64,000 nucleotides of DNA from Gaiellaceae bacterium. GTDB taxonomy: Bacteria; Actinomycetota; Thermoleophilia; Gaiellales; Gaiellaceae. Both the position numbers and the translations under genes were made by a program. The stretch's first letter is position 1. Each line of letters begins with the position of its first letter. The stretch lies in assembly GCA_030446625.1 (NCBI GenBank), contig JAUJMY010000002.1:124001-188000 (forward strand), read 5' to 3'. The notes under the pieces were generated by a model. The model did no database searches, was not told the DNA's origin, and was given only the letters and a program-made list of their open reading frames with translations. Shown here piece after piece: positions 41,231 to 48,244 of this stretch.

Positions 41231-41596
41231 CTACCCCGTCTGGTGCTCCTCGCGGAGCTCGTGGAACTCCTGCTCGATCTGGTCGAGCTCGTCGTCGGTC
41301 ATGTGCTCGAGCCGCACGAGGTGCGTGCGGGCGTCGCCGAGGCCGCGGATCAGCTCGTCGAGCTTGAGCTGGATCGCGCGCGTGTCGCGGTTCTGGCTGT
41401 ACTGGAGCAGGAGCACGAGCAGGAACGCGCCGATCGACGTCGCCGTGGCGGGGACGAGGATCCAGTTGTCCGACCAGCGGAAGAGCGGGCCCGAGACGAG
41501 CCACAGCACCGTGAGCGCGACCGCGCCGACGAACGCCCACGGCGACCCGACGAGCGTCGGCGTCCGCGCGGCGAGCCGGCACAGCGTCCTCAACAT
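41231..41596 (-). CDS. Low-affinity iron permease family membrane protein
   Basis: 121 residues with two membrane segments (SPWAFVGAVALTVLWLVSGPL and DNWILVPATATSIGAFLLVLLL), followed by QYSQNRDTRAIQLKLDELIRGL, the family's most conserved block (N-x2-D-x2-A-I-Q-x-K-L-D-E-L). The C-terminal end is charged (HMTDDELDQIEQEFHELREEHQ). In bacteria such proteins are rarely shown to move iron, and some are simply small membrane regulators. Start ATG 41596. Confidence 0.85.
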   Translation of the reverse strand: MLRTLCRLAARTPTLVGSPWAFVGAVALTVLWLVSGPLFRWSDNWILVPATATSIGAFLLVLLLQYSQNRDTRAIQLKLDELIRGLGDARTHLVRLEHMTDDELDQIEQEFHELREEHQTG

Positions 41597-41649: not shown

Positions 41650-44121
<2,472 letters not shown>

Positions 44122-44124
44122 CTC

Positions 44125-44499
44125 TTACGTCCTCACTGTCCGTCGAACGGGCAGGCGCGGCTCCTCGTAGAGGACGAGGTCGCGCCGGTAGGTCTTGTGC
44201 ACGTTCCGAATCTCTTCCTTCATCTCGCGCTCGAGCCGGTCGAGCCGCCCCTGCATGCGCTGGAGCTGGTCCTCGAGGCGGAGCACGTGCTCGACGCCGG
44301 CGAGGTTGAGTCCGAGCTCCGTCGTCAGCTGCTGGATCAGCCGCAGCCGCTCGATGTCGCGCTCCGAGTAGAGGCGCGTGTTGCCGGCGGTGCGCTTGGG
44401 GCGGACGAGTCCCTTGTTCTCGTAGATGCGCAGCGTCTGCGGGTGCATCCCGACGAGATCGGCGGCGACGCTGATCATGTACCGCGGCCGGTCGTCCAT
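44125..44499 (-). CDS. hspR: HspR heat-shock repressor (MerR family)
   Basis: Represses the dnaK operon by binding HAIR sites with DnaK as corepressor. 124 residues from ATG 44499, whose A is shared with the TAA of the preceding micropeptide (TAATG), suggesting coupled translation; an upstream ATG at 44520 in the same frame is the alternative. Helix-turn-helix [27 protein letters not shown], wing [22 protein letters not shown], then a coiled coil ([25 protein letters not shown]). The dnaK-grpE-dnaJ-hspR-clpB order is typical of actinobacteria. Confidence 0.95.
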
Positions 44500-44600
44500 T
44501 AGCGCCTCGGTGCCCGCCATCGCCCGTATCCCTCGAACGCGATCAGGATCACGGGAATCAGCAGGACGACAACGCCGATCGCTAGCGGGTTCTGAGTCAT
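44499..44600 (-). CDS. Unannotated 33-residue membrane micropeptide in the dnaK operon
   Basis: A 102-base open frame lies in the only gap of the heat-shock operon, between dnaJ (stop 44620) and hspR. It starts MTQNPLAIG, continues with a clear membrane segment ([18 protein letters not shown]) and ends in a basic tail (RWRAPRR). A purine-rich GAGGTG lies about five bases before the ATG, and its TAA overlaps the hspR ATG as TAATG. I know of no described member of this family. The hydrophobic run, ribosome binding site and coupling are seen; expression is not shown. Confidence 0.6.
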
Positions 44601-44619
44601 CGCTGGCACCTCACGACCG

Positions 44620-45741
44620 TCATCGTGAGAAGGCCTCCGCGCGCGGGTTCTCGCGCGACGCCTTCTGGAGCGCCTCGAGCGCCTCGCGCTCGGCCTTCGT
44701 CAGCTTCTGCGGCACGGTCACCCGCACCCGCGCGAGCAGGTCGCCCTTCCCGCCGCCGCTGAGCTTCGGCGCGCCCCGGCCGCGCACGCGCAGGAGCTTC
44801 CCGTCATGCGACCCCGCCGGCACCTTGAGCGAGATGCGGTCTCCGTAGGGCGTCGGCACCTCGACGGTGGCGCCGAGCGCGGCCTCGGGATAGGTCACCG
44901 GCACGTCGACGATCAGGTTCGAGCCGCGGCGCTCGAAGAGCGGCGAGTCGGCGACGTGCGTCACCACGTGCAGGTCGCCCGGCTGCCCGCCCGCGGACCC
45001 CGGCTCGCCCTTCCCCTTCAGCCGGATGCGCGTCCCGTCGCGGACGCCGGCGGGGATCTTGACGGTGTAGCGCTTGGTCCGGCGCTCGCGGCCGCTCCCC
45101 TGGCACTTCGCGCACGGCTTCTCGATCACCGTGCCGTTGCCGCGACAGCGCGGGCACGGCTGGGAGAGCGCGAAGAGGCCCTGGCTCTCGGCCTTGACCC
45201 CGCGCCCGTTGCACTCGGGGCAGATCTTCGGCGCCGTCCCCGGCTGGGCGCCGGATCCGCCGCACTCGCGACACGCCGTCTCGACGTCGACCGGGATGCG
45301 CGTCTCGACGCCCCGCAGCGAGTCCTCGAACGAGACGTTCACGTGCGCCTCGAGGTCGCGCCCGCGCTCGGGAGCGGTGCGTCGCCTTGCGCCCGTCCCG
45401 GGGCCTCCGCTGCTCGCGCCGCCGCCGCCGAAGAGGCCGCCGAAGAGGTCGCCGAGGTCGCCGACGTCGAAGTTCCCGAAGTCGACGTTGAAGCCCTCCG
45501 CGCCGCGCGGCGGCGCGGCGCGCCCGTTGCGCGAGCCGAACGTGTCGTACTGCTTGCGCTTCTCCGGGTCGGAGAGGACGTCGTACGCGCCCTGCACCTC
45601 CTTGAAGCGCGCCTCGGCGGCCGCGTCTCCCGGGTTGCGGTCCGGGTGGTTCTGGCCGGCGAGCTTGCGGTACGCCTTCTTGATCTCGTCCGCCGAAGCG
45701 CCCTTCGCGACGCCGAGGGTGTCGTACAGCGACTTCGCCAC
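44620..45741 (-). CDS. dnaJ: DnaJ co-chaperone (type I)
   Basis: J-domain co-chaperone that stimulates DnaK ATPase. 373 residues: J domain with [24 protein letters not shown] and the HPD motif (NHPDRNPGD), Gly-rich region ([15 protein letters not shown]), then four zinc repeats [24 protein letters not shown] and CAKCQGSG, and C-terminal substrate-binding domains. It starts 3 bases after grpE. The zinc repeats make this a DnaJ and not a CbpA. Confidence 0.96.
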
Positions 45742-45744
45742 GAG

Positions 45745-46281
45745 CTACCCCTCCGGAGCCTCCGGTGCGGCCGCGACGACCACGCGCGCGGGCCGCAGCA
45801 CGCGATCGCCGAGCCGGTAGCCCTTCTGGAGGACCTGCACCACCGAGCCCTCCTCCGCCTCCGATGGCTGCGAGAGGAGCGCCTCGTGCACGTGCGGGTC
45901 GAAGCGACCGTCCGTCTCGATCTCGGTCAGCCCCTCCTTCGTCAGCGCGTCGCCGAGGGCGCGGTGCACGAGCCGTACGCCCTCCTCGAGCGTCGCCTCC
46001 TCGTGCTCGTTCGCCGCCTCCAGCGCCCGCTCCAGGTCGTCGAGCACCGGCAGGAGAGCCTTCACGAGCCGCTCGTTCGCGCGAGTGACGATGTCCGCCT
46101 GCTCACGCGCGGCGCGCTTGCGGTAGTTGTCGAACTCCGCGGCCAGGCGCTGGAGCCGCTCGAGGTACTCGTCGCGCTCGGCCGTCAGGGCCTCGAGCTG
46201 CTGCTCGAGACCCTGCTCGGCCTCGACCGCGCCCCCCGGCGCCGTCTCTACGGCCTCCTGCGTCGTCGTCTCGTCGGTCAT
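45745..46281 (-). CDS. grpE: GrpE nucleotide-exchange factor
   Basis: Exchanges ADP on DnaK. 178 residues with a long N-terminal acidic coiled coil ([43 protein letters not shown]), the central [22 protein letters not shown] and the C-terminal [31 protein letters not shown] signature. The ATGA overlap with dnaK upstream and a 3-base gap to dnaJ downstream place it firmly in the operon. Confidence 0.95.
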
Positions 46282-48194
46282 GACGTCGTCCGCGCCTCTT
46301 CCTCGTCGATGACCTCGTAGTCGGCCTCCTCGACGACTTCGTCGTCGGACCCCGCACCGTCACCTGACGCGGCACCCGCCCCAGCCTGCTGCGCCGACGC
46401 CTGCGCGTACATCGCCTCGGCGAGCTTCAGCGAGGCCTGCTCGAGCGCCTCCGTCTTCGCGCGGATCTCGCCGACGTCAGCGCTCTCGAGCACGCCGCGA
46501 AGCTCCATGATCCGGCCCTCGATCGTCGCCGCGTCGCTCTCCTCGAGCTTCGCGCGGTGCTCCTTGAGCGTGCGCTCGGTCTGGTACGCAAGCGTCTCCG
46601 CGCGGTTGCGCGCGTCGGCGAGCTCGCGCATCCGCCGCGCCTCGTCGCCGTGCGCCTCCGCCTCGCGGATCATCCGCTGCACCTCGTCCTCGTTCAGACC
46701 CGAGCCCCCCTCGATCCGGATCTGCTGCTGGTTGCCCGTGCCGAGGTCCTTCGCGGAGACGTTGATGATCCCGTTCGCGTCGATGTCGAACGAGACCTCG
46801 ATCTGCGGCATGCCGCGCGGCGCGGGCGGGATGTTCATCAGCTGGAACTTCCCGAGCGTCTTGTTGTAGAGCACCATCTCCGACTCGCCCTGGAGGACGT
46901 GCACCTCGACCGACGGCTGGTTGTCGTCCGCGGTCGTGAACGTCTCGGACTTCTTGGTCGGAATGGTCGTGTTGCGCTCGATCAGCTTCGTGAAGACGCC
47001 GCCCTTCGTCTCGATCCCGAGCGAGAGGGGTGTGACGTCGAGGAGCAGGATGTCCTTGACGTCGCCGCGCAGGACGCCGCCCTGGATCGCGGCGCCGACG
47101 GCCACGACCTCGTCCGGGTTCACGCCCTTGTGCGGGTCCTTGCCGATCAGCTCCTTGACCTTCTCCTGGACGGCCGGCATGCGCGTCATGCCGCCGACGA
47201 GGACGACGTGGTCGATGCCGCTCGCGTCGATGCCCGCGTCCGCGAGCGCCTGCTTCGTCGGCCCGACCGTGCGGTCGAGCAGCGCCGCCGTCAGCTCGTT
47301 CAGCTTCGCGCGCGTGAGCTGGAGGTCGAGGTGCTTCGGCCCCTCGGGCGTCGCGGTCACGAACGGCAGGTTGATCTGCGTCGTCATCGTCGACGACAGC
47401 TCGATCTTCGCCTTCTCGGCGGCCTCGTAGAGCCGCTGGAGCGCCATCTTGTCGGCGGCGAGGTCGATGCCCTGGTCGCGCTTGAACTCGGAGACCATCC
47501 AGTCGACGATCGCCTTGTCGAAGTTGTCGCCGCCGAGGTGGTTGTCGCCGTTCGTGGCCTTCACCTCGAAGACGCCCTCGGCGAGCTCGAGGACGGAGAC
47601 GTCGAACGTGCCGCCGCCGAGGTCGAAGACGAGGATCGTCTGGTCGGCCTCCTTGTCGAGCCCGTAAGCCAGCGAGGCGGCGGTGGGCTCGTTGATGATC
47701 CGCTTGACGTCGAGGCCGGCGATCTTGCCGGCGTCCTTCGTCGCCTGACGCTGGTCGTCGTTGAAGTAGGCGGGAACGGTGATCACCGCGCTGTCGACGG
47801 TGTCGCCGAGGTACGCCTCCGCGTCGGCCTTCAGCTTCTGGAGGATCATCGCGCTGATCTCCGGCGGCGCGTACTCCTTGCCGTCCGCCTTGACGCGCGC
47901 GTCGCCGTTCGGCCCCTGCGCGACCTCGTACGGGACGATCGTCATCTCCTCGGAGACCTCGTCCCACTTGCGCCCCATGAAGCGCTTGATCGAGAAGATC
48001 GTGTTCTGCGAGTTCGTGACCTGCTGGCGTCGCGCGGGCGAGCCGACGAGCCGCTGCCCGTCCTTCGTGAACGCGACGACCGACGGGGTGGTGCGTCCGC
48101 CCTCGGCGTTCGGGATGACGGTCGGCTCGCCGCCCTCGAGGATCGCCATGCAGCTGTTGGTCGTCCCGAGGTCGATTCCGATGGTCTTCGCCAT
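46278..48194 (-). CDS. dnaK: Hsp70 chaperone DnaK
   Basis: 638 residues: ATPase domain with [49 protein letters not shown] and GAAIQGGVL, and the linker [21 protein letters not shown]. The substrate-binding domain follows, and the lid ends in an acidic tail ([12 protein letters not shown]). First gene of the operon grpE-dnaJ-micropeptide-hspR-clpB, with ATG at 48194. An AT-rich leader with an inverted repeat precedes it. Confidence 0.98.
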
Positions 48195-48218: not shown

Positions 48219-48244
48219 TTAGAGAAAATCTAAGCGGATTTATA
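48219..48244 (-). promoter_or_regulatory. dnaK promoter region with AT-rich inverted repeat
   Basis: A TATAAA -10-like hexamer (48244-48239, minus strand) is followed 5 bases later by an inverted repeat TTAGA / TCTAA with spacer TTTTC (48233-48219), just before the dnaK start at 48194. It covers the expected transcription start, an operator position. It only loosely resembles the CTTGAGT / ACTCAAG HAIR consensus of HspR. No clear -35 is seen. Confidence 0.45.

Follow-up and report, generated by a model that had tools for sequence, protein, structure and literature searches.

Few bacterial operons have been studied as much as the dnaK operon, which in Thermus carries a small accessory gene after dnaJ, namely dafA, whose product is the DnaK-DnaJ assembly factor, a soluble subunit of the complex. 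To our knowledge, no peptide has been described between dnaJ and hspR in the operon of Streptomyces. With regard to its core gene content and its operon-borne repressor HspR, the operon analysed here resembles the Streptomyces dnaK-grpE-dnaJ-hspR operon (PMC2687793), while clpB, which in S. coelicolor stands in a separate operon (PMC2687793), here directly follows hspR. In E. coli, on the other hand, a class of small membrane proteins is associated with stress responses, for example YohP with 27 residues and an N-out/C-in topology, and YkgR with 33 residues (PMC7549839). Herein we describe a micropeptide gene that is like these two in the size and the single predicted membrane helix of its product, and the topology of YohP is also the one predicted here from the basic C-terminal tail; unlike yohP and ykgR, the gene is part of a chaperone operon, where it is coupled to both dnaJ and hspR and stands in a slot that has different occupants in different genera. 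As a small accessory gene after dnaJ in a dnaK operon it is also comparable with dafA, but the occupants of the slot in Gaiellaceae are predicted to be membrane proteins, unlike DafA.

In the window, that is the whole stretch of 64,000 nucleotides from a Gaiellaceae bacterium, the minus strand carries the order dnaK-grpE-dnaJ-X-hspR-clpB, where X is the micropeptide gene. The genes dnaK (46278-48194, an open frame whose N-terminus is matched in 13 relatives) and grpE (45745-46281, assigned from its open frame and operon position) overlap by 4 nt, dnaJ (44620-45741, with the Pfam DnaJ, DnaJ_C and central domains) follows grpE after 3 nt, and 3 nt also separate hspR (44125-44499, a MerR-family heat-shock repressor, Pfam MerR_1 4.9e-20) from clpB (41650-44121, an open frame that stands 3' of hspR in relatives too). 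Directly 3' of clpB, at 41231-41596 of the same strand, there is a low-affinity iron permease family protein (PF04120, E 8e-37). The micropeptide gene itself occupies 44499-44600, from an ATG at 44600 to a TAA at 44501-44499, and a GAGGTG ribosome-binding site (44612-44607) precedes the ATG by 6 nt; an alternative in-frame GTG start at 44609 would yield 36 residues. Its TAA overlaps the hspR ATG in the sequence TAATG (44497-44501), and although a longer in-frame hspR start exists at 44520, the conserved HspR sequence begins only with MDDRPRYM at the 44499 ATG. All these features bear out the earlier note, made from the sequence alone, which had described a 33-codon frame with a single membrane segment and a basic tail between dnaJ and hspR, its ribosome site, its TAATG overlap, and an operon whose other genes overlap or lie 3-4 bases apart. 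Moreover, an 8-codon leader frame, MTVVRCQR* (44597-44623, minus strand), shares an ATGA with the dnaJ stop and another ATGA with the micropeptide start. The micropeptide is thus coupled to the dnaJ stop through this leader, and from dnaJ over the leader and the micropeptide to hspR there is a stop-start overlap at each step (ATGA, ATGA, TAATG), which gives the gene a co-directional and overlapping placement in the heat-shock operon.

Several properties indicate that the frame is very probably a real gene. A codon model based on 91 long genes in stretches of its own genome amounting to 449 kb gives the micropeptide frame a log-odds of +8.6, while the other five frames score from -0.5 to -24; the codon-position GC contents of its 36-codon version (0.69/0.47/0.78) are similar to those of the other occupants described below. 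The 33 codons, well within the 50 residues that bound small membrane proteins, reach a KD17 of 3.2, and AlphaFold2 run on the single sequence gives one helix at residues 5-29 with a mean pLDDT of 86. Coupling at both ends, hydrophobicity and coding bias are found together in this one frame. In the same 449 kb, 26 of 140 small frames are equally hydrophobic, and among the 11 small frames flanked by co-directional neighbours the micropeptide is the smallest and one of only two that are hydrophobic.

To see how the junction behaves in relatives, 75 distinct dnaJ-hspR junctions were gathered from Gaiellaceae, a family of soil actinobacteria that contains records such as KatS3mg012 and Candidatus Gaiellasilicea (a listed 76th, L202, belongs to another lineage). 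A cultured isolate of the family, Gaiella occulta F2-233T, grows at 35-37 C (PMC6741124). The spacing between dnaJ and hspR is -25 to +45 nt in 37 of them and 91 to 840 nt in the other 38, and in 35 of these 38 gaps there is a hydrophobic frame whose maximum KD17 lies between 1.9 and 3.2 and whose end coincides with the hspR start or falls a few nt from it. Almost every one of the 35 frames begins at the dnaJ stop, the window doing so through its leader and L057 through a leader of 23 codons; the products comprise 31-133 residues and one to three helices, the last of which is followed in most of them by a basic tail. Of the three remaining gaps, those of L021 and L061 are repeat-like and non-coding, and L046 has a frame of 281 residues to which Pfam gives no match; L021, L061 and also L028 have weakly hydrophobic frames, which were not counted as occupants, as they lie in repeat-like DNA and their coding periodicity is not clear. 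The gap of L046 (genus g10) is the one of 840 nt, and its occupant is not of the small membrane type. Outside the family, eight other families, of which six belong to the class and two to the order, supplied 60 junctions; their gaps measure at most 95 nt and hold no insert, and further junctions of the order family f3 lack one too, while the family f2 locus L028 has a repeat-like gap of 168 nt; families f4, f6 and f9 stood outside this survey. In Thermus and most other distant HspR loci no dnaJ is recognisable beside hspR, and the rest have no informative insert. The Thermaceae (L185-L201, Thermus and related) encode HspR-like MerR proteins about 60-70% identical to the HspR of the window, and no dnaJ is recognisable in the flanks examined at these loci. 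As a control, 62 of 67 grpE-dnaJ junctions have a spacing between -8 and +16 nt, and the long hspR-clpB gaps examined, which contain GTGTCGGACAC-type repeats or other sequence, hold no frame with a KD17 above 0.7. No sign of a membrane segment fused to DnaJ or HspR was seen at the junctions read. It is thus well supported that a slot of swappable membrane proteins is limited to Gaiellaceae among the families tested.

The earlier note had raised the conservation of the micropeptide in close relatives as a check, and the outcome is divided. Hydrophobicity, operon position and stop-start coupling do recur in related genera, but the sequence is not conserved: in the nearest genus L002, with 79% identity in DnaJ and HspR, has a 77-residue two-helix protein instead, and the insert is absent in about half of Gaiellaceae, so that its function is dispensable or replaceable. 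The note had also proposed, as possible roles, tethering, the sensing of membrane stress or a coupling of hspR translation. In 103 Gaiellaceae genomes the 33-residue peptide has no homologue beyond chance, the best match (E 0.004) being inside a longer frame elsewhere; nucleotide and protein alignment with the occupants of other genera gives nothing significant when the number of comparisons is allowed for, and no family of Pfam, NCBIfam or PHROG matches it.

Our preferred reading, to which we give a probability of about 0.6, is that the window carries a real gene for a single-span membrane protein, which is the local occupant of a Gaiellaceae-specific dnaJ-hspR slot with high turnover and coupled translation, and which serves as a stress accessory. 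The micropeptide would be translated from the dnaK-operon mRNA by a stop-start relay from dnaJ, and reinitiation at TAATG would pass the ribosomes on to hspR; since this mRNA carries it, the product is expected whenever the heat-shock operon is derepressed. The predicted orientation is N-out/C-in with a basic cytoplasmic tail. Over time the position would have been filled, emptied and refilled many times by small membrane proteins that share an architecture, i.e. one to three helices and usually a basic C-tail, rather than a sequence, and their most likely job would be that of stress-induced membrane accessories which tolerate sequence divergence, for instance as membrane anchors of DnaK/DnaJ or HspR or as buffers of the membrane in heat stress. 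The expression, membrane insertion, heat induction and function of the occupants are our inference, as distinct from their gene order, coupling sites, coding bias, recurrence, hydrophobicity and turnover and the purifying selection on recurrent ones, all of which are shown. An anchoring role seems plausible because the basic tails lie on the predicted cytoplasmic side and the adjoining genes encode chaperones, among them, in the window, a DnaK with a strongly acidic C-terminus; however, the positive-inside rule alone predicts basic tails, which makes them weak evidence for anchoring. A bolder form, which we put forward only tentatively, regards the junction as a kind of docking site: about 15 times, small membrane proteins of unrelated origin would have been recruited to it or born in it, stop-start direct repeats would have allowed clean swaps, and all would do the same job of a basic-tailed membrane anchor for DnaK/DnaJ/HspR, with the function kept by architecture and position and not by sequence. 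As far as could be found, a lineage-specific swappable membrane component of the dnaK operon is undescribed. If the occupants share a job, they would offer a natural experiment on the origin and replacement of membrane micropeptides whose function is set by where they stand and how they are built. Genes of this kind escape homology searches, and synteny and coupling expose them where sequence fails.

Clustering by BLASTP divides the hydrophobic occupants in Gaiellaceae into 15 mutually unalignable groups, and altogether 15 of the 18 insert groups are hydrophobic as compared with the 26 of 140 small frames in the window's own genome; taking the groups as independent, the binomial probability is about 5e-9, or 4e-6 with a background of 30%, though the groups so counted may go back to one ancestral gene whose descendants have become too different to be recognised. 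The tested occupants have only sub-threshold matches in Pfam, NCBIfam and PHROG, and AlphaFold2 models the 91-residue group at low confidence (pLDDT 60). A holin or phage origin was rejected, the best PHROGs match having an E of 0.06. Occupant L008 has some likeness to Rv2743c/PspM, a mycobacterial envelope-stress membrane protein (E 0.0034), but its 17 bits are far under the curated cutoff of 80 and the operon is a different one, so it was not taken as a member; the window peptide has no match to Rv2743c/PspM. Among the 103 family genomes, the two largest groups (A1 and A2) have confident matches only at the dnaJ-hspR junction and in one genus each, and for these two no relocation elsewhere in genomes with an empty slot was found.

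Selection was measured by pairwise comparison in each of the six groups that have several members. In all six, pN/pS is 0.20-0.61 in the gene frame against 0.98-2.64 in shifted frames. Values of dN/dS are 0.14-0.16 in the 91-residue group, 0.37-0.53 in the 62-64-residue group, 0.40 in the 99-residue group, 0.34 for L005/L041, and mostly 0.3-0.8 in the 91-98-residue group, rising to about 1.2 where one of the pair is the shortened L051; in the 37-40-residue group they range over 0.06-0.92, with the smallest values in the most closely related pairs. Of all these, the 37-residue one-helix group most resembles the window peptide, and its closest pair has a pN of 0.03 and a pS of 0.39. This shows that the six recurrent groups are under purifying selection.

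Such results bear on the alternative that survives best, according to which genes are born de novo in a permissive slot: non-coding or repeat DNA at the junction would be read by coupled ribosomes, and membrane-helix frames that are tolerated or mildly useful would survive with no common function. The orphan and mostly genus-restricted nature of the groups, without membership in any of the three databases, agrees with it, as do the patchy distribution and the non-coding repeat-like DNA in three gaps (L021, L061 and L028). Coding periodicity and purifying selection, however, show that it is the protein for which established occupants are retained, and no such membrane frames were seen at the neighbouring junctions. 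We regard de novo birth as a real but minority possibility.

The turnover of the slot in closely related genomes is relevant to a second alternative, namely one ancient orthologous gene with many losses and a divergence too fast for sequence comparison. On the DnaJ+HspR tree the presence or absence of an insert changes at least 15 times, an approximate count given a quick tree with many weakly supported forks. In genus g10 alone, L016/L017 (99-100 residues), L040 (97 residues), the 281-residue frame of L046 and the empty junction of L043 coexist, and L040 cannot be aligned to L016/L017 at about 91% identity in DnaJ and HspR, while the identity between the occupants of L016 and L017 is 80%. This is difficult to reconcile with a single gene, and so is the helix number varying from 1 to 3; the sameness of position, strand, coupling and membrane nature speaks for it, as does the weak similarity between some two-helix groups (L005-L024, E 0.001; L008-L055, E 0.004). 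On the whole we consider common ancestry of all the occupants rather unlikely.

The overlapping stop-start codons (TGATG/ATGA) at both ends of the insert form short direct repeats, between which an occupant could be cleanly lost with the flanking genes intact. Such a clean loss was seen in one comparison: L074 lacks the insert that is present in its close relatives L066, L067, L069 and L070, where the junction starts with TGATGGA or TGATGAA after dnaJ and ends with TGATGGAG/A before hspR, while the whole junction of L074 is TGATGGAG. The TGATGGA direct repeats thus bracket the insert in the relatives and one copy is left in L074, and deletion between the two stop-start repeats would explain why both flanks are undamaged. 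In genus g19, moreover, L009 and L034 keep a frame of 12 codons (MSTFLSSEGRPR and MSALLSPEGRPC) at the place that a membrane frame of 32 residues takes in L033, with the coupling sites unchanged, and this short frame may be an occupant that has lost its helix.

The coupling itself suggests a third alternative, a translational spacer, in which a short frame adds a termination-reinitiation step that lowers or retimes HspR synthesis and the peptide is irrelevant. The stop-start overlaps at both ends and the extra leaders (8 codons in the window, 23 in L057) would fit it, and the occupant sequence is indeed not conserved between genera. Nevertheless, a pure spacer is disfavoured because the recurrent occupants are under purifying selection, amino-acid changes being selected against within genera; 15 of the 18 groups are hydrophobic, a spacer would not need as many as 133 residues, and since dnaJ directly overlaps hspR in many relatives, the coupling of hspR cannot need the peptide itself. 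We judge this explanation improbable. Finally, that the window has a chance open frame without product is very unlikely: the sequence is without homologue and a frame that ends at hspR and has 30 codons or more does appear in 6.3% of 20,000 dinucleotide shuffles of the GC-rich 120-nt gap, but the additional demand of hydrophobicity (KD17 of at least 2) reduces this to 0.005%, with none at a KD17 of at least 3, and the codon bias, the ribosome site and the same arrangement recurring in relatives all argue against it.

As regards the control of the operon, a CTTAGATTTTCT element lies at 48223-48234 on the minus strand, 28 nt before the dnaK ATG, and no match to the Streptomyces-type HspR operator TTGAGY-N7-ACTCAA, with up to 3-4 mismatches, occurs in the stretch searched before dnaK in the window. 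A CTTAGATTTTCT-like element within about 100 nt ahead of dnaK is found in the window and in all 13 Gaiellaceae relatives read; of eight genomes tested, seven have a single copy of the exact 12-mer and one has two, the dnaK site always included. Judged by its sequence and position, the element is a candidate for a lineage-specific heat-shock operator unlike the HspR site of Streptomyces, and our guess would be that HspR binds it. Short inverted-repeat elements of the GTGTCGGACAC and GGGGTCAGACCCC types are located in the hspR-clpB gaps of L011, L013, L042 and L005, and in the dnaJ-hspR gaps of L021, L028 and L061.
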